A DNA stretch of 64,000 nucleotides, taken from contig NZ_NIHB01000007.1 in assembly GCF_002591915.1 (NCBI RefSeq), positions 6,076-70,075 of the forward strand, given 5' to 3'. The position numbers were made by a program, and so were the translations under genes. Source of the stretch: Marinicella litoralis (lineage in GTDB: Bacteria > Pseudomonadota > Gammaproteobacteria > Xanthomonadales > Marinicellaceae). The notes under the pieces are model-generated. The model was not told where the DNA came from. It did no database searches and saw nothing but the letters and a program-made list of their open reading frames with translations. This document shows positions 5,164 to 47,924 of this stretch, one piece after another (the stretch's first letter is position 1; each line of letters opens with the position of its first letter).

Positions 5164-6957
5164 TTATAAATCAAATCCTGCCAGGACCAAGTCATGATCT
5201 GACGATGCGAAAGGGCTGATTTGATAAAAACTGGCGGGTTTAATCTCACCCCCTTCTTCCCAAGGTTCTAAGTTATAGTCTAACTCCCTGAGGTGAATTG
5301 AATTGATGTGCCATTGTACCAAACCAGTGGCAACCTTGGCCGCTGCTGAATTGACCAAGACATAATCCAATGAACCCAGTTGGCCTCGAAAGCTGGTGGT
5401 CCAGTTACTGGGGTTTAGGTATGAATCAGCTAAGTTTTCAAATCCATTTTCTTGCAAAACAAGTATTGGATCTTCTTGCTGATAAGCATTTAAATCACCG
5501 GTCAAAATACTGATTTCCACCCTTTCTCCTGTGGGGTCATTATTTAGCCATGTTGAAATTTGCTGTGCGACTTCAACGCGAACCGCATTGAAGCAGCCTT
5601 GGCCATCTTGTTGGTCTTTATTGTCACCTTCTGCATCCCTGCAGTTTTTTGACTTCAAATGTGCAGTGGCTACATTAAAAAGGTTGTTATTCTTTGATTT
5701 AAACGTCTGCACGACCACAATTCGGTTTTTATTTTCTTTAAATTTTGGATTGGTTTTGGCATTCAGTAAAGCGTATTCCCCTATGGCAGACACTTCATTC
5801 GCTTGATAAATCAAACCCACTTTAATCACATCTTCACCCAAAACACCGGTATCGACATAAGCCCATTTTTTAGATCCTGCAGCTTGGTTCAAAGCTTCAA
5901 CCAAGCGCAAGCCTGAAATGTTATTGTTCTCCAACTCTTGAAGCCCAACTACACTGGCATCAGCTTGGTTAATAACATGTACTATTTTTTCAAGTTGCCG
6001 GTCGTATTCATCCATTGAATCAGCACCACGACAACCAAAGTTTTTCAAGGGTCCACATATGTCTTCACCCTGATCGATGGTTGTGAAATAATTTTCAAGA
6101 TTGAAATTAGCGATTTTTACCAAACCACCTGGATCGGATGGGGCAGATTGGTTTTCCAATTTTGAAAATTGTAATGCTTCCGTTGGTTGTAATTTATATT
6201 TTCCAAAAGCAAAATGCATCACACCTACAGTATTCAACATTTGCCCTACGGCTAAAGGATTCAGTCCATTGACCTCGTTCACACCATCGCTACCTACAGG
6301 TAATGGCACAGGAAATTGACTGTTGCGTCCATCGTCAATGGTTAGCCTATTTGCCTTGTTGTACTTACTGTGTTTATTGATTGCTTTTCCTGGGCGATAC
6401 ATTGCCGTTGGTGCCATCAACAATTCGGATGAAACAATCAACTCTCCGTATTTTAAGTATGGGTACAAATCTGTGACAACCACAGGTTGGTTGAAACCAA
6501 CACGCATGCCTTCTACTTGTTCCAAGTTAAATCCATTCAGAGGCATTTTCAATAAGTGTGCAGCTGGTAATTTGACTTTTTTAGCACAGGTTTTCATGGC
6601 GGAAATTGACACCAATTGCGTTACGTCAAATTGCTCGCTTACCCTGCCCTTAATAAGCATCAAATCGCCCAATTCAATCAACCTCTTTGCATCGTTGCTT
6701 TGAATGAACAAGCCCTCAGAAGTTTTGCTGTTGCCATCTGATTGTGGTTGCTGGACAAAAAAGCCACCCAGCCGTTCTTTGCCTCTGAAATCACCAGTCA
6801 CTACGCCTTTCACAATAACCTCTTCATCAAGCAGCTTTGAGGCCGACTGCGAACCTTGAATCAGGTGGATGGGAGTAAATTGACTTTCACAACTAAAATC
6901 AGTTGCTTGAATTGACCCGTTGAATATCAACAGCAGGGTGATTAAAGAAAATTTCAT
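5164..6957 (-). CDS. ExeM/NucH family extracellular endonuclease
   Basis: The 597-aa protein has a signal peptide (MKFSLITLLLIFNGSIQA). An OB-fold-like N-terminal region follows (about 45-125; VKGVVTGDF, FVQQPQSDGNS), then a linker domain. The C-terminal half is an endonuclease/exonuclease/phosphatase domain from about residue 283. Its catalytic motifs are visible in order: IANFNLENYF, VVGLQELENN, ATAHLKSKNC, LTGDLNAY and ASSDHDLVLAGFDL. This layout is that of ExeM/NucH secreted nucleases, which degrade extracellular or biofilm DNA for phosphate and nucleotides. Length and domain order look complete. It is transcribed alone. Confidence 0.9.
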   Translation of the reverse strand: MKFSLITLLLIFNGSIQATDFSCESQFTPIHLIQGSQSASKLLDEEVIVKGVVTGDFRGKERLGGFFVQQPQSDGNSKTSEGLFIQSNDAKRLIELGDLMLIKGRVSEQFDVTQLVSISAMKTCAKKVKLPAAHLLKMPLNGFNLEQVEGMRVGFNQPVVVTDLYPYLKYGELIVSSELLMAPTAMYRPGKAINKHSKYNKANRLTIDDGRNSQFPVPLPVGSDGVNEVNGLNPLAVGQMLNTVGVMHFAFGKYKLQPTEALQFSKLENQSAPSDPGGLVKIANFNLENYFTTIDQGEDICGPLKNFGCRGADSMDEYDRQLEKIVHVINQADASVVGLQELENNNISGLRLVEALNQAAGSKKWAYVDTGVLGEDVIKVGLIYQANEVSAIGEYALLNAKTNPKFKENKNRIVVVQTFKSKNNNLFNVATAHLKSKNCRDAEGDNKDQQDGQGCFNAVRVEVAQQISTWLNNDPTGERVEISILTGDLNAYQQEDPILVLQENGFENLADSYLNPSNWTTSFRGQLGSLDYVLVNSAAAKVATGLVQWHINSIHLRELDYNLEPWEEGGEIKPASFYQISPFASSDHDLVLAGFDL

Positions 6958-7027
6958 TGGGTGATTTCTTGACTGGTAAATTGATATATTAGCATGCCAA
7001 AGGGCGCAATCAAATCTCAGTTTTTAT

Positions 7028-7130
7028 TTGAGTAAAAAAAACCCAGGCTATGACCTGGGTTAAGGGGGGATTTAGACCCGAAGGCCTATGAAAAATCTAT
7101 TCAATACCTGGAGAGCATGCATCTGAATTT
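7028..7130 (-). ncRNA. Candidate small RNA ending in a strong terminator
   Basis: On the minus strand AACCCAGG-tcatag-CCTGGGTT (7040-7061) followed by eight T residues is an excellent intrinsic terminator, but no minus-strand gene lies to its right before 7270. Just upstream on the same strand is an AGGCC-TTCG-GGTCT hairpin (7074-7087) with a UUCG tetraloop. A terminator with a stable hairpin and no ORF suggests a short non-coding transcript starting between about 7100 and 7200. I could not fix a promoter and do not recognise a family. It could instead be a 3' relic. Confidence 0.35.
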
Positions 7131-7269
7131 CCGGCATGAATATTATCATCAATGCATGCAATTAAATGTGAATCACTGTAAAATCATTGTCTTGTAACAA
7201 ATCACAACCTTTCATTTGCTTGAAAAGTGATACCCTAACGACTGAACACCCTATAACAACGGAGAAAAC

Positions 7270-7671
7270 ATGAAACAAATTTTAACTGTATTAATGGCTG
7301 CATTGGCATTGAGCTTAAGTGCATGCAGTGATAATAATGCCGATGAAGCTGAAACCAAAGTTGAAGAAGCACAATCTGAATTGAGCCAAGCGGTTGAAAA
7401 AACAGCTGACAAAGCGGAAGAAATAAAAGACAAAACAGTGGCTTTAACTAAAGAAGGCTTTGATGATACCAAAGATGCTGTCAACGATTTATCTACAGCC
7501 ACCAAGGATCAATACCAAGAAGGCAAAGAAAAGGCTGGCGAGATGATTGAAGACGGAAAGCAAAAAGTAGATGAAATGGCTACAGCGGTCAAAGAGAAAA
7601 CCAGTGAAGTGGTTGAAGACGCCAAGAAAAAAGCCGATGAATTAACAGATGACGATGACGATGGTAACTGA
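7270..7671 (+). CDS. Small coiled-coil lipoprotein
   Basis: The 133-aa protein has a lipoprotein signal with lipobox LSAC (Cys about 19). The rest is a charged Lys/Glu/Ala-rich helix (AETKVEEAQSELSQAVEKTA and onward) with an aspartate-rich end (DDDDDGN). The heptad-like pattern predicts a long coiled coil, as in YtxH- or apolipoprotein-like envelope proteins. CGGAGAA before the ATG is a good ribosome site. The gene is monocistronic, with its own terminator. No specific function is recognised; an envelope stress or spacer role is only a guess. Confidence 0.75.
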   Translation: MKQILTVLMAALALSLSACSDNNADEAETKVEEAQSELSQAVEKTADKAEEIKDKTVALTKEGFDDTKDAVNDLSTATKDQYQEGKEKAGEMIEDGKQKVDEMATAVKEKTSEVVEDAKKKADELTDDDDDGN

Positions 7672-7828: not shown

Positions 7829-9073
7829 ATGAACCTACCTTTATTTATTGGACTAAGATACACCAAAGCCAAAAGAAAAAATCATTTCATCTCTTTCATA
7901 TCATTGATTTCAATGGCTGGAATTGCTTTGGGTGTGATGACTGTGATTGTTGTGATTTCAGTCATGAATGGATTCAACAAGGAATTTCAACAGCGGATGT
8001 TGAGTACCGTTTCCCATGCCACCATTTCTGCCTTCAGCGGAGATCACTTAACCGATTGGCAACAGGCCATTGAAAAAGTCACCAAGAAACCGGAAGTTTT
8101 GGGAGCAGCTCCATTCATCAGAACAGAAGGCATGCTACAAGGATACAAAACTGAAGGTGCAATGATACAAGGGGTGATGCCAGAACTAGAAACTGAAGTC
8201 ACCGAATTTCAGAATGCCATGCGGTATGGCGCCCTTGATGATTTACAGGCTGGTGAATTCAACATGATATTGGGGGTTGATTTAGCTGCCCACCTTGGTG
8301 TTGGACCAGGAGATACCGTCACTTTATATGTACCAGAGTTTCGCACCACAGCCGTGGGAGTCACCCCTCGACTGAAACGTTTTACCGTGACAGGCATATT
8401 TGAGGTGGGTATGTATGAATATGATTATAAATTGGCTTTGATCCACTTAGAAGATGCCAGAAGATTGTTGCGCATTCCAAAAGGCTCAGCCGAAGGCGTC
8501 AGAATCAAAGTCAATGACTTGATGCAGGCTCCCAAAATTGCCCGTGATTTGGCACCTGAATTAGACGGTTTTTATCGCATCAGGGATTGGACCCAAGAGC
8601 ATGTTAATTTTTTCAAGGCCACCAGAACTGAGCGCATGGTGATGTTTATCATATTATCCATGATAGTAGCTGTGGCTGCATTCAACATATTATCCACCTT
8701 GGTGATGTTGGTGACAGAAAAACAGTCAGATGTGGCTATTTTACGTACACTGGGTATGTCGAGCAGTCAAATCATGGGAGTGTTCATGGTATCCGGCACC
8801 TTAATTGGGTTGATTGGAACCGCCATAGGTACTGGCTTAGGTATCATCACAGCCATCAATATCAACAGCATCATGCAAACATTAGAAGGTTGGTTTAACA
8901 CCGAGTTTTTATCGAAAGATGTCTATTACATCACTGAAATCACAGCAGACCTCAGATCTGCTGATGTGATGATGATCGTATCAATCGCTTTTGGTTTGTC
9001 AATTTTAGCCACGCTTTATCCCGCATGGCGAGCATCTAAGGTTGAACCAGCGGAGGCATTGAGGTATGAGTGA
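7829..9073 (+). CDS. Lipoprotein-releasing ABC transporter permease (LolC/LolE/LolF type)
   Basis: The 414-aa inner-membrane subunit would, with LolD, extract lipoproteins from the inner membrane for LolA. The N-terminus LPLFIGLRYTKAKRKNHFIS followed by a membrane segment (about 20-45) is typical. A large periplasmic domain and three C-terminal membrane segments follow (about 265-292, 310-340, 375-398), ending YPAWRASKVEPAEALRYE. I prefer the ATG at 7829 over the upstream GTG at 7817 because homologues begin with a short lead before the FIGLRY block. The gene overlaps lolD by 8 bases. Only one permease gene is present here, so it may act as a LolF-like homodimer or have a partner elsewhere. 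Confidence 0.9.
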   Translation: MNLPLFIGLRYTKAKRKNHFISFISLISMAGIALGVMTVIVVISVMNGFNKEFQQRMLSTVSHATISAFSGDHLTDWQQAIEKVTKKPEVLGAAPFIRTEGMLQGYKTEGAMIQGVMPELETEVTEFQNAMRYGALDDLQAGEFNMILGVDLAAHLGVGPGDTVTLYVPEFRTTAVGVTPRLKRFTVTGIFEVGMYEYDYKLALIHLEDARRLLRIPKGSAEGVRIKVNDLMQAPKIARDLAPELDGFYRIRDWTQEHVNFFKATRTERMVMFIILSMIVAVAAFNILSTLVMLVTEKQSDVAILRTLGMSSSQIMGVFMVSGTLIGLIGTAIGTGLGIITAININSIMQTLEGWFNTEFLSKDVYYITEITADLRSADVMMIVSIAFGLSILATLYPAWRASKVEPAEALRYE

Positions 9074-9752
9074 TTCAGTGGTATTAAAATGTGAAAACTT
9101 AAGCAAGTTTTTTACTGATGGACAGCGAAAAATACAAATTTTTGAGGGTTTAGACTTTCAAGTCAAAGCCGGTGAATCTGTAGCCATTATGGGAGCATCT
9201 GGATCAGGAAAAAGTACCTTGTTGCATTTGCTGGGTGGTTTAGACACTGCCAATGCGGGTGATATCAATATCCAAGGCCAACAGCTGTCAAAGTTGAGCG
9301 GTAGACAACGAGGCCTTTTGCGAAACCAACATTTGGGCTTTGTTTACCAGTTTCATCACTTGTTGCCAGAGTTTTCTGCCCTCGAAAATGTCATGATGCC
9401 ATTGCTGATTGGTAAGACAGCAAAAGCCGCAGCCAAACAACAAGCCACTGAAATTTTACAACAGGTAGGACTTTCCGATCGATTAACTCACCGACCCGCG
9501 CAATTATCCGGCGGGGAAAGGCAAAGGGCCGCCATAGCCAGAGCCATGGTTACTTCTCCAGCTTGTATTTTGGCCGATGAACCCACTGGCAACTTAGATG
9601 AAAAGACTGCCAGTTCGGTCATGGATTTACTGATCAACCTCAAAGAACAGCTGAACACATCGTTGGTACTGGTCACCCATGACCAAAAAGTGGCCGACAA
9701 GATGCAGCACCAATATTTATTACAACAAGGGGCATTGATCAAATTAAGTTAA
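9066..9752 (+). CDS. lolD: Lipoprotein-releasing system ATP-binding protein LolD
   Basis: The 228-aa ABC ATPase has all core motifs: Walker A GASGSGKST (about 41-48), Q-loop VYQFHHLLPEFSALENV, signature LSGGERQR, Walker B CILADEPTGNLD and the H-loop VTHD. The FHHLLPEF Q-loop context and the NLDEKTA following Walker B are characteristic of LolD. Its start overlaps the permease stop, implying translational coupling. ATP hydrolysis powers release of outer-membrane lipoproteins to LolA. Confidence 0.95.
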   Translation: MSDSVVLKCENLSKFFTDGQRKIQIFEGLDFQVKAGESVAIMGASGSGKSTLLHLLGGLDTANAGDINIQGQQLSKLSGRQRGLLRNQHLGFVYQFHHLLPEFSALENVMMPLLIGKTAKAAAKQQATEILQQVGLSDRLTHRPAQLSGGERQRAAIARAMVTSPACILADEPTGNLDEKTASSVMDLLINLKEQLNTSLVLVTHDQKVADKMQHQYLLQQGALIKLS

Positions 9753-9763
9753 AACTGACTCCA

Positions 9764-12013
9764 ATGGATGCACTCATGTTTTTATTGGGTGCCATGCAAA
9801 TTCTGTGGTGGCCACTGCTCACTGAAGTGACACTGATGATTGCCACTGGGCTGTTGTTCCTCTGCTCATTATTAAAAGCCCGATTCAATCATTTAATTCC
9901 TGTAATATTTTTTATATCTGGTGTGCTGTATGCCATGTTGGCCTGTCAAATTCAACTGCAAAGTGAAATTGAAACGCCCCAAAAGCGTTCTTTTCAAGGT
10001 CGCATAGAATCCTTACCAAAACACACGGCACAAAAGGTCAGCTTCATAAGCAGCCATTCGGAAAGCAAACAATCCTTTTTACTTAATTGGTACTCAAAAG
10101 GCCAATCAAAACAAGTCGACTTCGAACCCGGAAACCTGTATCAATTTGAAGTCAGTCTAAAACCGCCCCATGGCATGGCCAATGGCATCGGCTTTGACCG
10201 TGAAAAATGGTTGTTTCGCAACAGAATCGATGGCATTGGAACCATCAAAAGCATGGACTTGATTGCTGAAAAAACTCGCCCACTTTCTTCAAATATATTG
10301 AATCAATGGCGCGCTACAACTGGAAAATCAATTGATCAACATTTTAAAGAACAAAGAATCAATGGTCTTATCCATGCACTTTCTATCGGCGATAAATCAC
10401 ATTTTGAGCATCAGGATTTCCAATTATTTCAAAACACAGGTACTGCGCATTTAATCGCCATTTCTGGTTTACACATCGGTATGGTTGCGCTTTTGGGTTG
10501 GTTATTGGGTGGGCTGGTGTTTCAACTCTTGCCACAACAAATCATCCCAAAATCCTTGATTCAAATTTATCTTGGGCTCTTATTTGCTGTACTTTATGCC
10601 GCATTGGCTGGCTTTGCGGTTTCAACCCAAAGGGCGCTGATTATGTTATTGGTTTACGCCTTGTTTAAAATTTTCAGGAGAGCCAGCTATGCCTGGGATG
10701 TGTGGTCAACTTCATTGTTGGCGGTGCTGTTACTGGACCCATTGAATGTGTTGGATGCTGGTTTTTGGCTTTCCTTTACAGCGGTTGCTGTGTTGATTTT
10801 ATCGTTCAATGGCATTTCTAATACACACAGCCGAACAAGTAATTTCATTGTTATGCAGTGGCGATTATTACTTGGTATGTTGCCATTGAGTTTATTGGTA
10901 TTCTCCAGAGTAAACTTGCTGGCACCGCTGATTAATTTATTGATGATTCCATTGATGACTTTTTTACTGGTACCGATGATTATGTTGTTGCTAATCATTG
11001 GTACTTTATTCAATTTCATGCCTGAAACATTGATCGATTTACTGTCCTGGAGCAGTCAACTTTTTCTTGACTTGCTGACTTGGTTTGCACATCATGCATC
11101 ATGGCCAATCCATGTTGCTGTCAACTCATGGTGGCAATTGGCCTTGTTGGGCATGGGAACAACCTTGTTTATTTTACCCAAAGCCATTCCACAACGTTTT
11201 TGGGGCCTTCCGCTGATTCTGATGGCAATAATCCCCATTGAAGACAGAATTAAATTGGGCCAATTTAATGCTTATTTTTTAGATGTGGGCCAAGGTTTAT
11301 CGGTGGTCATTAAAACCCAAAGTCATCAGCTCATCTACGATGTGGGGTCAGCCTATGAAAGTGGATTCAATATGGCTGATGCAATCACCCTTCCATGGCT
11401 ACAACAACAAAACATCACTGACTTGGATGCATTGGTGCTTTCGCATCAAGACAATGATCACTCTGGTGCTGAGGACTCATTGTTAGACAACACCTCTGTT
11501 GAAACCATTTGGGGAACTGAAAAACACCACCTTCCCTGTATTGCTGGCACGCAATGGCAATGGGACAATGTTACATTCAGTTTCTTAAGCCCTTACAATT
11601 TGACACCTTATCTGAAGAACAACAGTTCTTGTGTGTTAAAAATCAGCGGCACTGACTTCAGTTTATTACTCACTGGTGATATTGAAACTCCGGTTGAATA
11701 CAGGTTGTCACAAGCCGCTCCTGAACTCATCCAAGCTGATGTGTTATTGGTACCTCATCATGGCAGTAAGACATCATCATCTGCTGAGTTCATTCAAGCC
11801 GTTAACCCACAATTAGCCATTAACTCATCGGGCAAATACAATCCATTCAACCACCCAGCCAAGCAGGTGGTCGATCAATACACCCAACTCGGCATCCCAC
11901 TGATCGATACCCAAGACAGTGGCATGATTACCTTGAATACTTATCCAACACTACAATATAAAAGATTTCGCAATGAATCAGTCAGAATTTGGCGCAAAAA
12001 AAAGCCCGAATAA
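9764..12013 (+). CDS. comEC: DNA uptake channel protein ComEC/Rec2
   Basis: The 749-aa polytopic inner-membrane protein has an N-terminal membrane and OB-like region, the Competence domain (about 205-470, with SIGDKSHF and AISGLHIGMVALLG) and a C-terminal metallo-beta-lactamase-like domain. That domain shows FLDVGQGLSVVI, LSHQDNDHSGA, LLTGDIE and VPHHGSKTSS. ComEC moves single-stranded DNA into the cytoplasm during natural transformation. It starts 11 bases after lolD, the lol-comEC order found in many gammaproteobacteria. The stop codon lies in the loop of the terminator hairpin. Confidence 0.93.
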   Translation: MDALMFLLGAMQILWWPLLTEVTLMIATGLLFLCSLLKARFNHLIPVIFFISGVLYAMLACQIQLQSEIETPQKRSFQGRIESLPKHTAQKVSFISSHSESKQSFLLNWYSKGQSKQVDFEPGNLYQFEVSLKPPHGMANGIGFDREKWLFRNRIDGIGTIKSMDLIAEKTRPLSSNILNQWRATTGKSIDQHFKEQRINGLIHALSIGDKSHFEHQDFQLFQNTGTAHLIAISGLHIGMVALLGWLLGGLVFQLLPQQIIPKSLIQIYLGLLFAVLYAALAGFAVSTQRALIMLLVYALFKIFRRASYAWDVWSTSLLAVLLLDPLNVLDAGFWLSFTAVAVLILSFNGISNTHSRTSNFIVMQWRLLLGMLPLSLLVFSRVNLLAPLINLLMIPLMTFLLVPMIMLLLIIGTLFNFMPETLIDLLSWSSQLFLDLLTWFAHHASWPIHVAVNSWWQLALLGMGTTLFILPKAIPQRFWGLPLILMAIIPIEDRIKLGQFNAYFLDVGQGLSVVIKTQSHQLIYDVGSAYESGFNMADAITLPWLQQQNITDLDALVLSHQDNDHSGAEDSLLDNTSVETIWGTEKHHLPCIAGTQWQWDNVTFSFLSPYNLTPYLKNNSSCVLKISGTDFSLLLTGDIETPVEYRLSQAAPELIQADVLLVPHHGSKTSSSAEFIQAVNPQLAINSSGKYNPFNHPAKQVVDQYTQLGIPLIDTQDSGMITLNTYPTLQYKRFRNESVRIWRKKKPE

Positions 12014-38404: not shown

Positions 38405-38684
38405 AAATTAACAGTTTAATAAAACGGAGGCATTTTAACATGTAAAACTTGAAAACATGAAATGCTTTTACTGATAAGTCGCAGCTATATGGACATTCCG
38501 AAGATTTAATTGAAAAATTTGTTGGTATTTCACCTCTTTTGCTGTCAACTCTTGTTAAACGCATCATTGAATATCAAATCATGAAAAAGACATCATCAGC
38601 TGCTTAGATGAAAAATCTATTCACGCGTTTCATGGAATTATAACCCACAAATTGATACAATCTTCACACAGCCAAAGGCATCAT

Positions 38685-40838
38685 ATGACACTCCAAAACA
38701 ACAAAATATACCCACCGATTAATATGTCAACACCTATCAGCAAGACGCCTTTGATTCAAAACGGCAGTGCCAACGCAAAAAGGAATGAAATCAAAGCCCA
38801 TTTCATGAGTACCTATACACGGTATGAAAATTTATTTGAATGCTTAGCCAATGACGAAGCCTATTACCTCAAACCTGAATCATTGCGCCACCCATTGATT
38901 TTCTATTTTGCCCACACCGCAGTCTTTTTTGTCAACAAACTGCGAGTGGCTAAATTAATTGAACACAACATCAATGACGACATTGAGTCAATGATGGCCA
39001 TTGGTGTCGATGAAATGTCTTGGGATGACTTGAATGATGGCAATTATCAGTGGCCCAGCGTTCAAGAAGTCAGAAATTATCGCAAGCATGTGAGTCAACT
39101 GGTGTTGAATTTAATTGATCAATTACCATTGACCTTGCCCATTGGGTGGGATGACCCCTTTTGGATCATCTTGATGGGGATTGAACATGAACGGATTCAC
39201 TTAGAAACTTCTTCGGTATTGATCAGACAATTGGACATCCATCAGGTCAAACCTCACAGTGAATGGCCTCGATGTCAAAATGACAACCCTGTGGTTCAAA
39301 ACAGCTTAATTCATATTGATGCTGGCACCATTCATCAAGGTCGCCAGCTGCCCAGCGAAACTTACGGCTGGGACAATGAGTATGGGAGTTTGGAGACTGA
39401 AGTCGCTGCTTTCAAAGCCAGTCAATATTTGGTTTCTAATCACGAGTTTTTATCATTCATCGAAGATGGTGGCTATCAAGACATTCAATGGTGGACCGAT
39501 GAAGGCTGGCAGTGGAAGCAATTCAAGCAAGCTGAACACCCCACGTTTTGGTTGAAAAAAGCAGGCCAATGGTATTACCGCAGTATGACAGAAGAGCTTC
39601 CCATGCCTTGGAGTTGGCCAGCCGATGTTAATTACCTTGAAGCCAAAGCTTTTTGTAATTGGTTAGCAGCTCGGACTGGAGAGCCCATCAGATTACCAAC
39701 CGAAGCTGAATGGTTTCGCTTATACCAACACACCATCAACACCCACTATCCACATTGGGACCATACACCTGCCAACATTGATTTGGCTTATTTTGCCTCG
39801 TCTGTTCCCGTTGATCATTTTACTTTTGGCCAGGAGCAATTTGGCGACGTTATTGGCAATGTGTGGCAATGGACAGAAACAGCCATCGATGGTTTTGCAG
39901 GTTTTCAAGTTCATCCAGCTTATGATGACTTCTCTGTACCCACCTTTGACGGCCAACACAACCTGATCAAAGGTGGCAGTTGGATCAGTACCGGTAATGA
40001 AGCCCATAAGGATTCAAGATACGCCTTTCGCAGGCATTTTTTTCAACACGCAGGATTTAGATACGTCGAATCGGAGCAACAAGTGAACCAAAATTTTAAC
40101 ACCTATGAAACGGATGAACTCATTTCTCAGTACCTCGAATTTCATTATGGCAATGAATATTTCAATGTACCAAATTTCCCCAAAGCCTGTATAGATACTT
40201 TGATTCAATATGTTGATTTATCCGAACACAAACGCGCATTAGACTTAGGTTGTGCGGTAGGAAGGAGTTCTTTTGAGTTGGCGAAGTATTATGACCATGT
40301 TGATGCCCTGGATTTTTCTACGCGCTTTATTCGCAATGCCATTAACTTGGTAGATCATGGTGAAGTTAAATACATGATTCCTACTGAAGGCGAACTGACT
40401 GAAGTCAAATCCTTCAGCTTGTCTACATTGGACTTGGGAGAAAAAGCCAACAACATCGAATTTGCACAAGGTGACGCCTGTAATTTAAAAGCCAAATATG
40501 ATCATTATGATTTGATCTTTGCTGGCAATCTGATAGATCGGCTGTACCAACCCAAGCAGTTTTTGTCCAGCATCAAAGACCGCATCAATGCTGGTGGTTA
40601 CCTGGTTATCACATCACCTTACACATGGCTGGAAGAATTCACTGAAAAACAAAATTGGTTGGGTGGCGTTAAAATCAACGGTGAAAATCACACCACTTTG
40701 GACGCCCTTAAAGAACATCTAAAAGCAGATTTTGAATTGGTGGGTCTACCTCAGGATATACCCTTTGTGATCAGAGAGACAGCGCGAAAACATCAACACA
40801 CAGTCGCTCAGTTAACAGTCTGGAAAAAACACAAATGA
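38685..40838 (+). CDS. ovoA: 5-histidylcysteine sulfoxide synthase / putative 4-mercaptohistidine N1-methyltransferase OvoA
   Basis: The 717-aa enzyme starts ovothiol A synthesis. Its DinB-like N-terminal part carries the non-haem iron ligands: a His in FYFAHTAVFF (about 77) and the HERIHLE motif (His168, His172). A formylglycine-generating-enzyme-like domain follows (RLPTEAEWFRL, FGDVIGNVWQWTETA, KGGSWISTGNEAH, YAFRRHFF). The last 240 residues are a SAM methyltransferase (RALDLGCAVGRSSFELA). Iron-dependent oxidation joins cysteine to histidine C5, and the C-terminal domain should methylate the imidazole. The ATG at 38685, with AAGG upstream, is preferred over the TTG at 38652. Overlaps the next gene by ATGA. 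Confidence 0.93.
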   Translation: MTLQNNKIYPPINMSTPISKTPLIQNGSANAKRNEIKAHFMSTYTRYENLFECLANDEAYYLKPESLRHPLIFYFAHTAVFFVNKLRVAKLIEHNINDDIESMMAIGVDEMSWDDLNDGNYQWPSVQEVRNYRKHVSQLVLNLIDQLPLTLPIGWDDPFWIILMGIEHERIHLETSSVLIRQLDIHQVKPHSEWPRCQNDNPVVQNSLIHIDAGTIHQGRQLPSETYGWDNEYGSLETEVAAFKASQYLVSNHEFLSFIEDGGYQDIQWWTDEGWQWKQFKQAEHPTFWLKKAGQWYYRSMTEELPMPWSWPADVNYLEAKAFCNWLAARTGEPIRLPTEAEWFRLYQHTINTHYPHWDHTPANIDLAYFASSVPVDHFTFGQEQFGDVIGNVWQWTETAIDGFAGFQVHPAYDDFSVPTFDGQHNLIKGGSWISTGNEAHKDSRYAFRRHFFQHAGFRYVESEQQVNQNFNTYETDELISQYLEFHYGNEYFNVPNFPKACIDTLIQYVDLSEHKRALDLGCAVGRSSFELAKYYDHVDALDFSTRFIRNAINLVDHGEVKYMIPTEGELTEVKSFSLSTLDLGEKANNIEFAQGDACNLKAKYDHYDLIFAGNLIDRLYQPKQFLSSIKDRINAGGYLVITSPYTWLEEFTEKQNWLGGVKINGENHTTLDALKEHLKADFELVGLPQDIPFVIRETARKHQHTVAQLTVWKKHK

Positions 40839-41935
40839 ATTTCGAGCCGTTTAAGATGGCTCAATTCAGTGGCCAATGGCCAGCTGGATCATTACACAAT
40901 ATGCACAGCAGCAACCCACAACCAATGACATGGGATGAAGTGGCTGAATTGACTCAAGTTGATGTGGTGGCTGTGCTTAAAAATGCGCCCTTAGGTTATG
41001 AGTCCTCACAAGGCAATGAAAAATTACGCCATAGCCTAAGTCTTCATTATCACAAGCAAATAAAAACCAATGACATTGTGCTTACTTCAGGCGCACAAGA
41101 AGGGATATTTTTAACCATGCATGCTTTGTTGGATCCGGGTGATCATGTGGTGGTTATAACGCCTTGTTTTGAACCTTTACACAAAGTGGCACATGATTTG
41201 GGTGCAAAGGTCAGTACCTGTCAATTAAAACCCCAAGATCAATGGCGTATAGATTGGCCTGCTTTGACTTCATGTTTAAAACCAGAAACCAAGTTATTGA
41301 TTATCAATTTTCCACATAACCCAACCGGCTCACACATCAGTTCTGCTGATTTACAACGCATCGTTGAATTGTGTGAAAAGAACCATTGTTGGCTGTTTTC
41401 AGACGAAGTGTTTCGCGGCTTGGAACACCAAGTCAAGCACAGATTAACTTCAGCAGCTGATTTGTACCACAAAGCCATAGCCATTGGGGTGGTATCAAAA
41501 GCCTTGGGGTTACCAGGCATCAGGGTGGGGTGGGTTTCTACGCAAAATCAGTCATTGGTCGATAAAATCATGGTGATAAAATCACACCTTTCCATTTGTC
41601 AAAGCAGTTTAGATGCACAGTTGTGTCAAACACTGGTTCCACACAGCGAACGTTTGTGGCAAAGGCATGTTGAAATCATCAAAACCAATAAAGCACTTGT
41701 AGAAAAATATTTAGATGGCCACTCACAACTTCACTGGCACCCGCCACAAGCTTCGGCAACTGGCTTCGTCCAATTGAAAAACAAAGTGGCCGCAGGGTTT
41801 GTTGATGATTTAGCCAAGCAATCATCCATCATGGTGATGCCCAACGAGGTCTTTCTGACGCAACAACAAGGATTCAGGTTAACCCTGGGCCAAAAAGGGT
41901 CGGCTTCCCTGTTGTCGACAATTATGAAGCCCTAA
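40835..41935 (+). CDS. ovoB: PLP-dependent fold-type I enzyme, probable OvoB sulfoxide lyase
   Basis: The 366-aa aminotransferase class I/II-fold protein has LTSGAQEGIFLTMHALLDPG, NFPHNPTGSHIS, LFSDEVFRGLE and the PLP-lysine in GVVSKALGLPGIRVGW. In ovothiol pathways a PLP lyase (OvoB) cleaves the histidylcysteine sulfoxide made by OvoA to release 5-mercaptohistidine. Position supports this: its ATG overlaps the ovoA stop by four bases. The sequence alone would only say aminotransferase or beta-lyase. Its 3' end overlaps the convergent GGDEF gene by 14 bases. Confidence 0.82.
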   Translation: MNFEPFKMAQFSGQWPAGSLHNMHSSNPQPMTWDEVAELTQVDVVAVLKNAPLGYESSQGNEKLRHSLSLHYHKQIKTNDIVLTSGAQEGIFLTMHALLDPGDHVVVITPCFEPLHKVAHDLGAKVSTCQLKPQDQWRIDWPALTSCLKPETKLLIINFPHNPTGSHISSADLQRIVELCEKNHCWLFSDEVFRGLEHQVKHRLTSAADLYHKAIAIGVVSKALGLPGIRVGWVSTQNQSLVDKIMVIKSHLSICQSSLDAQLCQTLVPHSERLWQRHVEIIKTNKALVEKYLDGHSQLHWHPPQASATGFVQLKNKVAAGFVDDLAKQSSIMVMPNEVFLTQQQGFRLTLGQKGSASLLSTIMKP

Positions 41936-43727
41936 CCACAGCGTTACCTTTGAGCAATGAAGCATAGGAAACAACCTGATTGCGGCCTTTGTTTTTTGCT
42001 TCAAACAAAGCCAAGTCAGCGTGGGTCAACAACATCGAAGTCTTATAACCAGAAAACCCATTGCTGCTGATGCCAAAGCTGGCTGTGATGTTGAAACTGG
42101 CACCAGAAGGTGAGCAGTCTAATTCGGTGATCGCTAGGCGCATTTTTTCCATCAAAGCAATCATTTTCTGGTGAGTGATTCCAGGCGAAACAATACAAAA
42201 TTCTTCGCCGCCTAAGCGTGCAATCATGATGTCGTGATCAGCTACATTTTCACAGGTAATGATGACTTCCCGCAACACCCAGTCACCGACTAAATGGCCA
42301 TGCTGGTCGTTGACATTTTTAAAATGATCCAAGTCCATGATGGCTAAATTAATGGGCTCTTGCTTTTCCTTACAGCTTGCCATCATTTGTTTCATTCGTT
42401 CTTCAAATGCTTTGCGGGTAAAGACTTTGGTCAGATGGTCAATTTCCGCCACTTCTTTAAAATAATCATGTCTTTTCTTGATTTTATAAGTCCAGACACC
42501 TAACAACAGCAAAACACTGACAATCAACAACATCATCAATTGTTGCTTTTTCGCGGTTTCAACTGACAGCCTATTTTCTAACACCAACAGTTTATTGTTT
42601 TGATTCAATTGCTCAATCTGTAATTCTTGCGCTAAGTTGGCATGTTTGACACGATAATAAGCTACTTGGGTCGCCAATTTTCGTTCAAACACAGCCTTTT
42701 CAATCTCATTTTTCTTGGCTAAAAATAAATAAGCGGGTTGCATCGTATTGGCTTCCAGACTTAATTGAATCAGTACATTGAGCGCTAAAATCAACTGCTC
42801 TGACTCTCCAATACTGATGTTTTCTGCAATGGCCAATTTTCCATAGGACATGGCTTGCTTATTCATATCAGCAATCCAATACATATGCGCCATCAAGGCA
42901 TGGTAATACACTTTGATGTTTTTAAATTGTGTTTTAATGACCTCATCTTCTAAAGACTCCAGTGTATCAACTGCTTGCAGTGCCTGAGCCGAATCATGGC
43001 TGTCTTTTTGAGGAAATTGATAGCGAACTTGATCTAATTGTAAGAACAGCGAGGCAATGTGATTTTCAACCGCTTCACAGCGTTCAATGGCTTGTTCAAT
43101 TTCATTGATGTACTCAGCGCCCTTTCCTTGCCTCATCAATATTCTGTATTTGTTAAAACCACCCATGCATTTGTCATCTTCAGTAAAATCACCTGAGATC
43201 AGCAAGTCTGCGTATTTTAAGGCAATTTCATCTTGATTCATTAAGCGATACGAAATGGCAGCCACGTTATTGGTCAGTGACCTCAGGTAATCATCTTCTG
43301 TATTTTCTGTGATCTGAATCGCTGTGTTCAAATTTTTCAGCGCAGGTTCAAAATCACCTGTTATGACTTGTAGGTTCGCCAGAAACTGAACAACCCTGGC
43401 TTTGTATTCAGGTGTCTCACACAGTGCCTTGGTTTGCTTCAATGCATTGATTGATTGGGAGTAATCACCTTTATAACTTTCTTTATAAATAGACAAGTAT
43501 TGATACAGACATTGCTCATCGGCTGACATGGTCGCCATCAATGGTTGCATGGCTTCTAACTTAGCTCCAAACTCATCTTGTTGTACTTTTCGGATTTTCT
43601 CCAAATCAATGAGCTGGGCTTCCAATTGATTGATGTTTGGATTTTGCTCACTGTCATTGATTTCGGCATAAGCAGGAGCAAAGGCCATAAAACCAGCGAT
43701 TAAGAATTGTTTGAATGATTTAACCAT
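41922..43727 (-). CDS. TPR-sensor diguanylate cyclase (DGC1)
   Basis: The 601-aa protein has a signal peptide (FKQFLIAGFMAFAPAYA), a periplasmic TPR-like helical region (about 30-390), one membrane segment (about 402-422, LMMLLIVSVLLLLGVWTY) and a cytoplasmic GGDEF domain. That domain shows IDHLTKVFTRKAFEE, NLAIMDLDHFKNVND, HGHLVGDWVLREV, the catalytic RLGGEEF and an ADLALFEAKNKGRNQV end. The active site looks intact, so it should make c-di-GMP. No RxxD inhibitory site is seen five residues upstream. Closely paralogous to DGC2. Last gene of the candidate borosin locus; a terminator-like hairpin sits just before its start. Confidence 0.88.
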   Translation of the reverse strand: MVKSFKQFLIAGFMAFAPAYAEINDSEQNPNINQLEAQLIDLEKIRKVQQDEFGAKLEAMQPLMATMSADEQCLYQYLSIYKESYKGDYSQSINALKQTKALCETPEYKARVVQFLANLQVITGDFEPALKNLNTAIQITENTEDDYLRSLTNNVAAISYRLMNQDEIALKYADLLISGDFTEDDKCMGGFNKYRILMRQGKGAEYINEIEQAIERCEAVENHIASLFLQLDQVRYQFPQKDSHDSAQALQAVDTLESLEDEVIKTQFKNIKVYYHALMAHMYWIADMNKQAMSYGKLAIAENISIGESEQLILALNVLIQLSLEANTMQPAYLFLAKKNEIEKAVFERKLATQVAYYRVKHANLAQELQIEQLNQNNKLLVLENRLSVETAKKQQLMMLLIVSVLLLLGVWTYKIKKRHDYFKEVAEIDHLTKVFTRKAFEERMKQMMASCKEKQEPINLAIMDLDHFKNVNDQHGHLVGDWVLREVIITCENVADHDIMIARLGGEEFCIVSPGITHQKMIALMEKMRLAITELDCSPSGASFNITASFGISSNGFSGYKTSMLLTHADLALFEAKNKGRNQVVSYASLLKGNAVVRAS

Positions 43728-43729
43728 TA

Positions 43730-43762
43730 AATAAAAAGTGCCCGTGAATTTTCAAAGGCACT
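43730..43762 (-). terminator. Terminator or attenuator between peptide A and DGC1
   Basis: On the minus strand AGTGCC-(14 nt)-GGCACT is followed by TTTTTATTTA. It ends almost at the DGC1 start codon and lies 22 bases after the peptide A stop. Partial termination would make more peptide mRNA than cyclase mRNA, as is common after RiPP precursor genes. Confidence 0.6.
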
Positions 43763-43784
43763 GTGTCATGATATTGAATTGATA

Positions 43785-43946
43785 TCAATCGTCGTCATCA
43801 CCAGGATGGTGTGCACACTTAAGCTCGTTGTCTAGCGATAACAACTGCTGCACTTGATCATCCGATAATTGACTTGCAATCTGGTTATTTTGATGAACAG
43901 AGTCGGTTTGACCTATGTTTTCTAATATTTTTACTGGTTTATTCAT
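43785..43946 (-). CDS. Small peptide A, candidate RiPP precursor
   Basis: This 53-aa peptide starts at an ATG with a strong AGAGGTG ribosome site. An upstream in-frame start gives 18 further residues but lacks such a site. The N-terminus MNKPVKILENIGQTDSV and the end NELKCAHHPGDDDD match peptide B (46410-46589) at both ends: LE-[NK]-IGQT-x-S and N-[DE]-L-x-C-x3-P-x-DDD. The middle (LSDDQVQQLLSLDNEL) is helical and resembles the LT/S-D/E-Q helix of borosin-binding domains. No signal peptide is seen. It sits between a GNAT gene and DGC1. It may be modified by the borosin-type methyltransferase at 46642-47424. Function unproven. Confidence 0.75.
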   Translation of the reverse strand: MNKPVKILENIGQTDSVHQNNQIASQLSDDQVQQLLSLDNELKCAHHPGDDDD

Positions 43947-44022
43947 AACACCTCTATTGTGATTTTTAAAAATAAATTGCTGGCACCTCAATGCCAACAA
44001 TCAATCTATTCTAACATCAATT

Positions 44023-44571
44023 TTATCGAAAATTCGAATCAATCCATGACGACTTTTCGATTGACCATTCTTGAGATAACTGTTGATTAACACCGGCTTT
44101 AATTTGCCTGCCTTTAAGTAATTTTAAGTACTCATTGGCTGCATTTGCAGCCACATTATTTATTTGACAAAATGCATATACCACATCAATTTTAAAATCT
44201 TCAAAAGCCGCACTTATCATCATCTTTTTGCTTTGATGCCCCCAATACTGACGTCGCCAATCGGGAGATATCATGATGCCAACTTCAGCAACACCCCGGT
44301 TATTTTGATCAAACCATGTCAAACCAGTGATACCAATTTTATCTTGCTTATCCCCATGAACAATCACATAAGTCAGATGATGAGGATCTGGTGTCTGCAT
44401 GACTTTGATTGTTTCATGCAATTGTTTATTGGCCTGGGCTTTAGTTAAGGGCCTGCCTATGTATTGCATGATGTCTTGATTGCTATACATTGCATAAAAG
44501 AAATCCATATCCGATTCATCCAAGGGCTTAAGGATGATTGGAACATTTGGCTTTGAGATGACAGAACGCAA
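44023..44571 (-). CDS. GNAT family N-acetyltransferase (GNAT1)
   Basis: The 182-aa RimJ/RimL-like acetyltransferase has ILKPLDESDMDFFYAMYSNQ, YIGRPLTKAQAN, VGIMISPDWRRQYWG (acetyl-CoA P-loop region, altered from the usual Q/RxxGxG/A) and AFCQINNVAANAANEYLKLL. It is a paralogue of GNAT2 (47424-47924): both share LKPL-[DS]-E-[ST]-D and I-M-x-x-I-G-x-x-L-T-x-x-Q-A-N. The best available start is TTG at 44571 with a poor ribosome site, 17 bases after DGC2, so translation may be coupled. The substrate might be the small peptide encoded next to it (inference). Confidence 0.8.
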   Translation of the reverse strand: MRSVISKPNVPIILKPLDESDMDFFYAMYSNQDIMQYIGRPLTKAQANKQLHETIKVMQTPDPHHLTYVIVHGDKQDKIGITGLTWFDQNNRGVAEVGIMISPDWRRQYWGHQSKKMMISAAFEDFKIDVVYAFCQINNVAANAANEYLKLLKGRQIKAGVNQQLSQEWSIEKSSWIDSNFR

Positions 44572-44588
44572 TTGACTGAAAAATGGAA

Positions 44589-46385
44589 CTATGTCCTACC
44601 CTGTAATGTTTTGAATTTGACCACCTGATTGCGACCGTGTTTTTTGGCATCAAACAAAGCCACATCGGCATGGGTTAATAACAGTGGCAAAGAATAACCT
44701 GAAGTCACTGACGAAGTGTAGCCAAAACTGGCTGTGACTGAAAGTTTAGCGCCTGACTCTGAACAATCCAAAGTTTCAATGGCAGAACGCATCATTTCTA
44801 ATTTGTTTCGCATCGTTTCACAATCCACATCCGCCATCACAATACAAAATTCCTCACCACCCAAGCGCGCTAAAATCATATTTTCCTCGACCAATTCTTT
44901 GATGGCATAAACGACGTTTTTCAACACCCAGTCACCAATCAGATGGCCATGACTGTCATTGACGTTCTTGAACAAATCTAAATCCATGATGGCTATATTG
45001 ATGGGGCTGTTGGTTTTTTCACAATTTTCCAATTGGACTTTTACTTGTTCCTCGAATGCTTTGCGAGTTAACACCTTGGTCAAATGATCAATTTCTGACA
45101 CGTCTCTGAAATAATCATGCCTTTTCTTGATTTTGAATAGCCATAAAACCATCATAGCCAAAACAGTTAAAATCAATAAAATGATCAACCTTTGGTTATT
45201 GGCTTCTTGGTTAGCTAACTTTTTCTCAAGTTCCAACACTTCTTTTTGCCGGTTCAATTGCTCTATTTCAAAAACCTTGGCTAAATTTGAATGCTTAACC
45301 GCCATAAACGCCATCTGCTTGGCTTGTGTTTCGTCATACATACTCAATTGAGTTTTGTTTATTTTCTTCAAATAATTATATGAAGATTGGAAGTCTCCAT
45401 TGTCCTTAGAAACCTTCTCCAACACCTCCAATGCCATAATCAGTTGTTCAGTATTTCCTAAATCTTGATTCAACTTCAATGCATTTAAAGCATGACTCTG
45501 AGCCAACTTATTTTCACTCTTAAACCAATAAAATTTAGCTTTAATCGCAGCGAATATACCAAGTATGTTTTTATAAGGACTGTTTTGAATTTCTGCATCA
45601 ATGTTACGAATTTCAGCTTCAATTTCGCCCAATGCATTTTCATCCAATCTGTCCTGAGCCAATTTCCATTTAATGTTATCTAAAATTAAGAATTGACTGT
45701 ATAACAAATTACCACTGCTTTTACATTGTCCAGACATCTCTTTAATTTCAGAAAATTCTTTTGGTGGGTTATTACCATCTAAATGATGCACATTACTGCT
45801 GTAATGCAAATGACACAAATTTTTATCTGTCGGTTCAAGGTTGTACAAAAGTTCAGAATACTTAACACCTAACTCTCTTTGATCCAATAAATTATAAACA
45901 ATAGCTGCCGCTGAATAAGCTAACGTTTTGGTTGTTGTATCAGCTGTTTGTTCGGCATTTTGGATCACCAAATCAATATGATTAGAAGCTTTTAAATAAT
46001 TTCCACCAATCACAGATATATTAGCAATCAAGGCATTCAGCCTTACCCTTACTCTTAAATCATCACAGCTTGGAATCAAATTTTCCATTACCTTAATTGC
46101 TTGCTTAGATTCTCCTTTAAATGCTTTTTGATATGCCCTTAAAAATGCATAATGACATTGTTGATAAGATGACATTTTCATTTGTTCAAAAGCCAATGCA
46201 TCTAAACCATCACCAAATAATTGAGGATTGTTAATTCTCAACGATTCCAGCCTTAATAATTCATCAGTGATGTATTGCGGTTCACCAGATGATTTTACTG
46301 AAATTTGAGCAAAAGAAGTACAGACACACAAAAAGAGCATGAAAACTAAACATGCTCTTCTATTCCAATCTATCTCTTGAATCAT
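44589..46385 (-). CDS. TPR-sensor diguanylate cyclase (DGC2)
   Basis: The 598-aa protein has the same layout as DGC1: N-terminal signal or anchor (ACLVFMLFLCVCTSFAQ), a periplasmic TPR-like helical sensor, a membrane segment (about 400-420, LIILLILTVLAMMVLWLF) and a cytoplasmic GGDEF domain with INIAIMDLDLFKNVND, HGHLIGDWVLKNV and RLGGEEF. No RxxD inhibitory site is seen. The C-terminal half is close to DGC1 and the sensor half has diverged, which suggests different ligands. It follows peptide B by 24 bases, the same order as peptide A then DGC1. Confidence 0.88.
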   Translation of the reverse strand: MIQEIDWNRRACLVFMLFLCVCTSFAQISVKSSGEPQYITDELLRLESLRINNPQLFGDGLDALAFEQMKMSSYQQCHYAFLRAYQKAFKGESKQAIKVMENLIPSCDDLRVRVRLNALIANISVIGGNYLKASNHIDLVIQNAEQTADTTTKTLAYSAAAIVYNLLDQRELGVKYSELLYNLEPTDKNLCHLHYSSNVHHLDGNNPPKEFSEIKEMSGQCKSSGNLLYSQFLILDNIKWKLAQDRLDENALGEIEAEIRNIDAEIQNSPYKNILGIFAAIKAKFYWFKSENKLAQSHALNALKLNQDLGNTEQLIMALEVLEKVSKDNGDFQSSYNYLKKINKTQLSMYDETQAKQMAFMAVKHSNLAKVFEIEQLNRQKEVLELEKKLANQEANNQRLIILLILTVLAMMVLWLFKIKKRHDYFRDVSEIDHLTKVLTRKAFEEQVKVQLENCEKTNSPINIAIMDLDLFKNVNDSHGHLIGDWVLKNVVYAIKELVEENMILARLGGEEFCIVMADVDCETMRNKLEMMRSAIETLDCSESGAKLSVTASFGYTSSVTSGYSLPLLLTHADVALFDAKKHGRNQVVKFKTLQGRT

Positions 46386-46409
46386 TAATACGTTCTAACG
46401 AGTGGTTGG

Positions 46410-46589
46410 TTAATCCTCGTCGTCATCGTCTGGAAACAGCACGCATACTAAATCATTATTTTGTGCTTTTAGTTTATCAAATGCGTGATCACTATATTTA
46501 GCAACCTCAAACATTTTATCAACCGAATCAAACTGCTGTATTGATTGTGTTTGTCCTATTTTTTCTAACATTGAAATGTTAATTTTCAC
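46410..46589 (-). CDS. Small peptide B, candidate RiPP precursor
   Basis: This 59-aa peptide is not in ordinary ORF calls because of its size. It starts at GTG (46589) with GAGGTGA close upstream. That start places LE at residues 8-9, exactly as in peptide A. Sequence features: MLEKIGQTQSIQQFDSV at the N-terminus and NNDLVCVLFPDDDDED at the end. The hydrophobic stretch LVCVLF before Pro-Asp4 would be a plausible borosin-type core, since known cores are rich in Val, Leu and Ile. No signal peptide or DNA-binding fold. It starts 52 bases after the methyltransferase stop and precedes DGC2. Confidence 0.78.
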   Translation of the reverse strand: MKINISMLEKIGQTQSIQQFDSVDKMFEVAKYSDHAFDKLKAQNNDLVCVLFPDDDDED

Positions 46590-46641
46590 TGGTCACCTCA
46601 CTTTTTAGTTAATAAAATTATTATTCTTTATCGCAAAAATC

Positions 46642-47424
46642 TTAACACGACTCATTAATCGACAACAACTCATTTATTTTTTGGTCATTTTTAGATTTTT
46701 CGATTGCTGGCGGAATCACCAATGTTGTTTTCAACGTCATGTCAGCTTGAGCCAAATCTCTTAAGGAAAGCCAATCCGCTTTGAATCTTTCAATGGGTAA
46801 GACTGCGCATTCATACAGTGCCACTTGGTGATCTGCCGGATAAAAGTCTAACAACATGTTCACCAATAATTGTTTGGCTTTTTCACTGGTCTCAAAAACC
46901 TTCAAACTGCGGTCACCGGCAATCCCTATTTGCCAAAGAATCAAGTAAGCACTTGGATCAAACTTGGTTTGATTGAACATGAAGTTATTCGCTTCAAAAT
47001 GAGCACATCCGAAGGTCCCAGGATCAATTCCCAAATCAGCATACAAACAATCCTCTGCAGATACCCCTGGTTCCATATGGGCCCTAAAACCTTCTGCCCG
47101 AGCCATCTTGATGGTTTCATGCGGGGTTAATGCAAACACCCCAGGGTGTCCGTAAAAAGCGCCCACCACCTTTTTACCTGCACGCACTTGACTCATGATG
47201 GCTTCATTCATTTCTGCATAGGTTTGCTTGCGTGATTTTCCCTCTGCATACAATGACTGTAGGCTGGTGACATTGTCATTCATGGTAGCCACCCATTCTT
47301 CGACCAATTGATTGGAAGCAGCAACGAACACAACGTCGGCTTGTTCTATAAAATGCCTTGATAAGGGTGTGATGTGCGAACCCAAAGTCATACCCAAGCC
47401 CACATTGACTAAACTGCCTTTCAT
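46642..47424 (-). CDS. Borosin-type alpha-N-methyltransferase (tetrapyrrole methylase fold), stand-alone
   Basis: The 260-aa SAM enzyme has a TP-methylase start (GSLVNVGLGMTLG) and close matches to borosin methyltransferases such as fungal OphMA and bacterial SonM: GKSRKQTYAEM, VVGAFYGHPGVF, PGVSAEDCLYADLGIDPGTF, FEANNFM and LILWQIGIAGD. The OphMA catalytic residues Tyr66, Arg72, Tyr76 and Tyr98 (as I recall) correspond to Tyr59, Arg65, Tyr69 and Tyr91 here, with identical spacing. It stops at 260 residues, so no precursor is fused and the type is split. Borosin enzymes N-methylate the peptide backbone. It overlaps GNAT2 (TAATG). The neighbouring peptides are the obvious substrates (inference). 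Confidence 0.88.
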   Translation of the reverse strand: MKGSLVNVGLGMTLGSHITPLSRHFIEQADVVFVAASNQLVEEWVATMNDNVTSLQSLYAEGKSRKQTYAEMNEAIMSQVRAGKKVVGAFYGHPGVFALTPHETIKMARAEGFRAHMEPGVSAEDCLYADLGIDPGTFGCAHFEANNFMFNQTKFDPSAYLILWQIGIAGDRSLKVFETSEKAKQLLVNMLLDFYPADHQVALYECAVLPIERFKADWLSLRDLAQADMTLKTTLVIPPAIEKSKNDQKINELLSINESC

Positions 47425-47924
47425 TATTTAAGTAACTCCATATTAAAATCCCACCGGATGAGGTTAAGATGTTTGGTTAATTTAGATGTGTTCTCAACAG
47501 GCACAAAACCCATCTTTTTATAACTGGTGTTGGCAGCAACATTGTCACCGCTGATATAAACCGTACACACTTTAACCGGAAAAATATTTTTTACCAAATG
47601 CAGGGCTTCCATTTGCGCCCAACGACAAACACCTTGGTTTTGAAAAGTGGGCAAAATAATCATGCCTGATTCAATGTGACATGACTCAGCTTTCCAATGC
47701 ATACTTAACAACCCCACCCTTTGCTTGCCATCGGCCGTCATAATCACTTGATAGATTGCTTTGTTTTTATCTGCTTCCGCCCTCATTTTACCACCCAGGC
47801 CATTTGCTTGGTGGTCGGTTAAAACGGCGCCAATGTGACGCATAATGACAGGGTTTTGGTACAAAACGATGACGAAAGTGTCATCAGTTTCTGACAGCGG
47901 TTTTAATTTAAAAGTCATGGTCAT
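47424..47924 (-). CDS. GNAT family N-acetyltransferase (GNAT2)
   Basis: The 166-aa acetyltransferase has FKLKPLSETDDTFVIVLYQN, RHIGAVLTDHQAN, the acetyl-CoA loop region ILPTFQNQGVCRWAQ and the NVAANTSYKKMGF motif at the end of the fold. The start chosen is the ATG at 47924 with AGGA upstream; a GTG at 47984 would add 20 residues of non-family sequence. Paralogue of GNAT1. It is the first gene of the candidate RiPP operon and its stop overlaps the methyltransferase start. Confidence 0.83.
   Translation of the reverse strand: MTMTFKLKPLSETDDTFVIVLYQNPVIMRHIGAVLTDHQANGLGGKMRAEADKNKAIYQVIMTADGKQRVGLLSMHWKAESCHIESGMIILPTFQNQGVCRWAQMEALHLVKNIFPVKVCTVYISGDNVAANTSYKKMGFVPVENTSKLTKHLNLIRWDFNMELLK

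Follow-up and report, generated by a model that had tools for sequence, protein, structure and literature searches.

A seven-gene operon around a predicted borosin methyltransferase

We analysed a 64,000-nucleotide stretch of the Marinicella litoralis genome (contig NZ_NIHB01000007.1, positions 6,076 to 70,075 of the forward strand; hereafter the window), which carries at 41922-47924 an operon built around a predicted methyltransferase of the borosin type, borosins being ribosomally synthesised and post-translationally modified peptides (RiPPs) with N-methylated backbones. All seven minus-strand open reading frames (ORFs) that a preliminary description of this DNA had laid out nearly end to end are present at exactly those positions, and Pfam assigned GNAT, TP_methylase and GGDEF domains to the expected genes. 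In the order of transcription, the operon consists of:

47424-47924, minus strand: GNAT1, RimJ/RimI-like acetyltransferase (Pfam Acetyltransf_3, E 2e-10)
46642-47424, minus strand: predicted split-borosin alpha-N-methyltransferase, SonM-like, 260 aa (SonM, E 8.6e-70; OphMA, E 2.7e-44)
46410-46589, minus strand: putative precursor peptide B, 59 aa, GTG start (member of the 158-ORF precursor family)
44589-46385, minus strand: DGC_B, signal peptide, TPR sensor, transmembrane helix (TM) and GGDEF domain (GGDEF, E 4e-35; sensor profile, 398 bits)
44023-44571, minus strand: GNAT2, acetyltransferase, TTG start (Pfam Acetyltransf_3, E 2e-19)
43785-43946, minus strand: putative precursor peptide A, 53 aa, ATG start (precursor-family profile, 49 bits)
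41922-43727, minus strand: DGC_A, second TPR-TM-GGDEF cyclase (GGDEF, E 1.7e-35; sensor profile, 340 bits)

GNAT1 and the methyltransferase gene overlap by 1 bp, and the following gaps measure 52 bp (methyltransferase to peptide B), 24 bp (peptide B to DGC_B), 17 bp (DGC_B to GNAT2), 76 bp (GNAT2 to peptide A) and 57 bp (peptide A to DGC_A). Both peptide genes are preceded by an AG-rich sequence of the ribosome-binding type. Genome-wide, the methyltransferase is single-copy, the precursor profile gives exactly two matches, and among 26 GGDEF matches only the two cyclases of the operon bear a TPR sensor of this type. Since the sole methyltransferase, precursors and sensors of these kinds all sit in the operon, their association goes beyond chance. 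Among named organisms, Marinicella sediminis and M. meishanensis come closest, with a methyltransferase identity of 79%.

The methyltransferase resembles SonM

The methyltransferase matched crystallised SonM and fungal OphMA at the E-values listed above, while other TP methylase models scored far under their own cut-offs on it. The enzyme groups with SonM and not with other TP methylases; the opposite grouping, named beforehand as a refutation of the borosin assignment, was not seen. The four residues put forward earlier as catalytic (Y59, R65, Y69 and Y91) are real, are invariant across 15 diverse relatives, and align with Y58, R67, Y71 and Y93 of SonM, which carries a three-residue insertion between the first two of them. 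These SonM residues form the active-site set treated in the SonM paper (PMC8429565). The protein has no fused core or clasp, as had been described, and its 260 residues stop after the TP_methylase domain (SonM, 263 aa). Only distant relatives were found in plasmid records. Together, these comparisons support its assignment as a split, type IV-like borosin methyltransferase.

Two leader-bearing precursor candidates

Peptide B carries a helical leader resembling a borosin-binding domain over about residues 1-46 and a putative core, LVCVLFPDDDDED, at 47-59. Peptide A, 36% identical to it, combines the leader ILENIGQTDSVHQ with the core ELKCAHHPGDDDD. A search with an iterated hidden Markov model, seeded with Marinicella-family peptides and run on 13,453 short ORFs from 140 loci, yielded a precursor family of 158 ORFs. 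Of these, 134 lie upstream of a same-strand cyclase gene, mostly 0-50 bp away, and most of the others overlap cyclase ORFs with a too-early mechanical start or sit at contig ends. Leaders have the motif LExxGQxxSLxQ in Marinicella and, in Rhodanobacteraceae, FLExxGQDAxLRHA; in 78 of 136 cores, C-x(2-4)-P leads into small or acidic residues.

We then compared the family with known structures. A profile of 65 precursors, with the window sequence first and SonA-like members left out, matched SonA alone in the PDB (E 0.0017; next match, 1.2), and the match spans the borosin-binding domain, which bears out the earlier proposal that the two short peptides are precursors. When built from Marinicella-family precursors alone, the profile failed to reach SonA, and the AlphaFold2 (AF2) model of peptide B gave no significant Foldseek match in the PDB, as expected at 59 residues; the tie of the window precursors to SonA therefore runs through their relatives. 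Sequence evidence thus supports both peptides as leader-bearing borosin precursors.

Two departures were seen elsewhere in the family. Precursors from Steroidobacter and Povalibacter (L145:9417-9848 and L153:9461-9892; L numbers denote the collected loci) have a long lysine-rich tail behind an acidic segment, whereas tails are acidic elsewhere. In Luteibacter sp. dw_328 (L179:9164-11105), six tandem precursor genes precede a single TPR-GGDEF gene.

Architecture of the TPR-GGDEF sensors and the acetyltransferases

Both window cyclases begin with a signal sequence, continue with a TPR region and a membrane helix, and end in a GGEEF domain. In DGC_B, the signal peptide is followed by a TPR sensor at about 28-398, a long helix with the TM at about 400-418, and a GGDEF domain with an intact GGEEF active site at residues 509-513; the AF2 model of the full-length protein is confident, with a predicted local distance difference test score of 93. 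DGC_A and DGC_B share 29% identity in the sensor and 56% in the TM and GGDEF part, and sequence inspection found the RxxD inhibitory site in neither. Among the 137 family cyclases with a recognisable motif, GGEEF/GGDEF is intact in 136 and a TM lies ahead of the GGDEF domain in 135. The sensor cysteines C191 and C221 are invariant across the family, and would fit the expectation for a periplasmic disulphide.

Among the 50 structure matches listed for the DGC_B model, the sole non-GGDEF structure was Rap, a pheromone receptor from phage phi3T (Z 22, 311 residues aligned, rmsd 4.3, identity 10%), in a comparison made with the full-length model. On the model, this match reflects a common TPR arrangement, not a common function.

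The two acetyltransferases are 25% identical to each other and may be peptide modifiers. The preliminary description had counted them as part of the locus. In the survey described below, a GNAT gene lies within 1.5 kb of 85 of the 161 related methyltransferases, indicating a frequent but not constant component. GNAT2 has a Tyr (RRQYWG) at the usual Gly position of its acetyl-CoA loop, so its activity is doubtful.

The sensor is conserved at related methyltransferases

To survey relatives, 60 loci from the order and 80 from a GTDB contig scan were assembled, two sets that overlap, and 40 further loci from the Alteromonas-Shewanella order brought the total to 161 distinct methyltransferases. In both of the first two sets a same-strand TPR-GGDEF gene beside the enzyme is the rule, and the genera of the GTDB scan include Marinicella, Alteromonas, Rheinheimera, Alkalimonas, Rhodanobacter, Lysobacter, Dyella, Luteibacter and Steroidobacter. 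A sensor of the same TPR family as in the window lies on the same strand within 2.5 kb of 151 of the 161 enzymes, so the neighbourhood is conserved in relatives, and the lack of conservation named beforehand as a refutation did not occur. Among the ten that depart from this are cases at contig ends, one with a broken cyclase (L238), additional enzymes next to a first one, and two fusion proteins that themselves bear the sensor.

The loci closest to SonM follow the same pattern. At L223 and L224, whose enzymes are 98 and 99% identical to SonM, the enzyme gene is accompanied by genes for a SonA-like precursor and a TPR-GGDEF protein that directly abut each other; thus the best-studied split-borosin type has the same arrangement. 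No such sensor was found at five more distant methyltransferases (L208-L212, 31-43% identical to SonM), indicating that the association is confined to a clade and does not extend to all borosin enzymes. These results support the diguanylate cyclases as a conserved part of the locus. The link to cyclases drawn in the preliminary description therefore stands, but it is not peculiar to this operon, being found at nearly every close relative, including the near-identical SonM loci. Separately, at L052:2221-14120 a row of five TPR-GGDEF genes encloses a single borosin methyltransferase gene; the ORF scan detected few precursors there.

Fusions and exchanged output domains

In several loci the sensor is joined to other partners. 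L067 and L070 encode a single protein (841 and 859 aa) comprising signal, TPR, TM, GGDEF and borosin methyltransferase; in each, a precursor gene lies immediately upstream. At L206, a HisKA-HATPase-receiver protein beside a TPR-GGDEF protein carries this sensor over its full length and with both cysteines (168 bits). TPR-TM-histidine kinases also lie beside the enzyme in L207/L259, L253, L255, L257, L258 and L260, with sensor scores of 27-75 bits that could reflect generic TPR similarity. At L243 (8800-10980), enzyme and precursor adjoin a tandem pair of secreted TPR proteins that keep the two cysteines but lack an output domain. Given these swapped or missing outputs, the constant partner is the sensor and not cyclic di-GMP (c-di-GMP). 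L206 thereby places a TPR-histidine kinase-receiver and a TPR-GGDEF of one sensor family (8474-11434 and 5788-7584) around one borosin methyltransferase.

Precursor leaders co-vary with sensors

At loci with several sensors, most sensors have a precursor of their own. Across 106 pairs, leader distances correlated with sensor distances after control for GGDEF and enzyme (partial r 0.46). When two large clades were taken separately, the leader-sensor partial r was 0.56 and 0.58, with GGDEF near zero, and with the sensor trimmed to GGDEF length it was 0.53 and 0.56. GGDEF domains appear to be homogenised between paralogues (56% against 29% for the sensors in the window), so a lower GGDEF correlation is to be expected. 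Re-pairing of the peptides within nine multi-pair loci ranked the true pairing 2 of 1536. By these measures, precursor and sensor diversify as a unit. The covariation nevertheless falls short of proof of binding.

A peptide-receptor reading and its alternatives

Gene content, conservation, one-to-one pairing, gene fusions and swapped output domains form the basis on which we read the locus as a split-borosin operon with a built-in receptor, in which the peptide is sensed by the TPR domain of its partner and sets c-di-GMP; we give this reading an even chance. One methyltransferase would recognise the helical leader of both precursors and N-methylate the backbone of their C-terminal cores. The processed peptide would then exit the cytoplasm and, in the periplasm, bind the TPR domain of the sensor whose gene follows directly, and binding would be relayed through the membrane helix to alter the activity of the cytoplasmic GGDEF domain. 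To the cell, the peptide would thereby act as a signal passed on through c-di-GMP, plausibly one of self or of population. The two peptide-receptor channels, served by one shared methyltransferase, would have arisen by duplication of a unit of GNAT, precursor and sensor. The genetic linkage is strong, whereas methylation, maturation, export, binding and the direction of the c-di-GMP response are the parts that we infer.

Several observations weigh against such a receptor. The operon contains neither an exporter nor a dedicated peptidase, and the precursors lack a signal peptide, which leaves the peptide's access to a periplasmic sensor unexplained. Cores co-varied with the sensor in the Marinicella clade alone (partial r 0.34); those of the larger clade did not, and followed GGDEF (partial r 0.38). 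A test for complementary charges on core tails and sensors was negative. Homogenisation of GGDEF domains between paralogues could yield a leader-sensor signal without binding. Moreover, the Rap match is weak evidence of peptide binding, because TPR folds are alike.

One alternative, rather unlikely in our judgement, is that the TPR-GGDEF protein is an upstream regulator, through which another periplasmic cue acts by c-di-GMP, or by phosphotransfer where the output is a kinase, to control the making or release of a borosin with a task of its own elsewhere, such as metal binding, redox chemistry or antimicrobial action. This would suit the constant gene order with the sensor last and the precursors' want of an export signal; the invariant cysteine pair of the sensor could act as a redox switch, and a methyltransferase on the cytoplasmic end of the cyclase, as in L067 and L070, would put methylation under local c-di-GMP control. 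However, a pathway regulator does not need one copy per substrate, whereas tandem duplicates have one sensor per precursor though one methyltransferase serves both, and the leaders of the Marinicella clade track the sensor rather than the methyltransferase or GGDEF.

It is also conceivable, though quite improbable, that nothing is exported, and that the intact precursor and the methyltransferase bind the cytoplasmic face of the cyclase, so that methylation state, through the supply of S-adenosylmethionine, sets c-di-GMP. The lack of an exporter, the excess of leader over core covariation, the core following GGDEF in the larger clade, and the methyltransferase-GGDEF fusions, which bring enzyme and cyclase together in the cytoplasm, all fit this scheme. 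Against it, the strongest covariation is with the periplasmic and not the cytoplasmic domain, and at L243 the partner TPR protein bears a signal peptide and lacks any cytoplasmic output.

Finally, a borosin locus lying by accident beside unrelated diguanylate cyclases is barely credible: GGDEF genes are common in the genome, but the operon's two cyclases alone bear the TPR sensor, and we rejected chance neighbourhood on the census of 161 methyltransferases, 151 of which keep the sensor in many families, with fusions and output swaps.

Returning to the peptide-receptor reading, a sensor kept at almost all close relatives, and fused or rewired in some, points to signalling and names a receptor candidate. 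The same peptide-sensor pairing in many bacteria, including the close relatives of SonM, makes the peptides' job testable. If the reading is true, RiPP chemistry would be tied to the control of lifestyle by c-di-GMP in Alteromonadales and Lysobacterales.

Neighbouring genes

The operon is flanked by a divergent gene for an MtfA-type peptidase and a convergent gene for a pyridoxal phosphate (PLP) enzyme downstream of OvoA. Within 38652-41935 on the plus strand, OvoA, the ovothiol sulfoxide synthase with its C-terminal methyltransferase (TIGR04344, TIGR04345), overlaps the class I PLP enzyme by 4 bp. The latter had no curated equivalog match and makes a good candidate enzyme for the OvoB reaction.

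Comparison with known systems

Borosin types V-X are reportedly covered by Imani 2022 and Cho 2022. The closest known system is SonM/SonA, the type IV split borosin of Shewanella oneidensis (Miller et al. 2021, PMC8429565), which has the same separate methyltransferase of about 260 residues with its catalytic residues, a separate small precursor bearing a helical leader and, in the 98-99% identical loci, a TPR-GGDEF gene right after the precursor. The window differs in having two precursors and two sensors per methyltransferase, two GNAT genes, shorter leaders, and an acidic core with conserved Cys and Pro (C-x3-P-D/G-D); the SonA core is methylated at Leu63 and Ile65 (PMC8429565). As of 2021, no split-borosin pathway had been tied to a final natural product (PMC8429565), and the literature searched stated no biological role for split borosins.

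A GGDEF-containing domain is drawn in at least one borosin architecture (Xu et al. 2024, PMC11395268, Figure 1), so the link of GGDEF to borosins is already published in part, to an uncertain extent; the legend of that figure gives no function, TPR sensor, pairing or kinase versions. No second paper connecting borosins with GGDEF or with diguanylate cyclases came up in our literature search, whose reach did not include the main classification papers. Nor did the literature searched describe how widely the sensor link extends, versions with a kinase or without an output, the statistics on pairing, or a Rap-like sensor.

The sensors can further be compared with the RRNPP receptors (Rap, PlcR and NprR): their predicted TPR fold resembles that of Rap phi3T among the 50 matches listed, TPR folds being alike in general, and a small peptide gene likewise adjoins. 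In contrast to these receptors, which are cytoplasmic with an N-terminal helix-turn-helix or a Rap helical effector domain, the window sensors are Gram-negative, have an N-terminal hydrophobic signal and a C-terminal GGDEF, and are predicted to be periplasmic and linked through a membrane helix to GGDEF (a kinase in relatives); sequence identity is 10%, and the peptide is a predicted borosin substrate without a secretion signal. Tentatively, and at somewhat less than an even chance, bacterial split borosins may be N-methylated signals read by a family of dedicated periplasmic, Rap-like TPR receptors with exchangeable outputs, SonMA being one case. The outputs would be c-di-GMP synthesis, histidine kinase phosphorelay or none, and the family could, with the same reserve, be a Gram-negative counterpart of RRNPP, which, if true, would add a backbone-methylated class of peptide signal.

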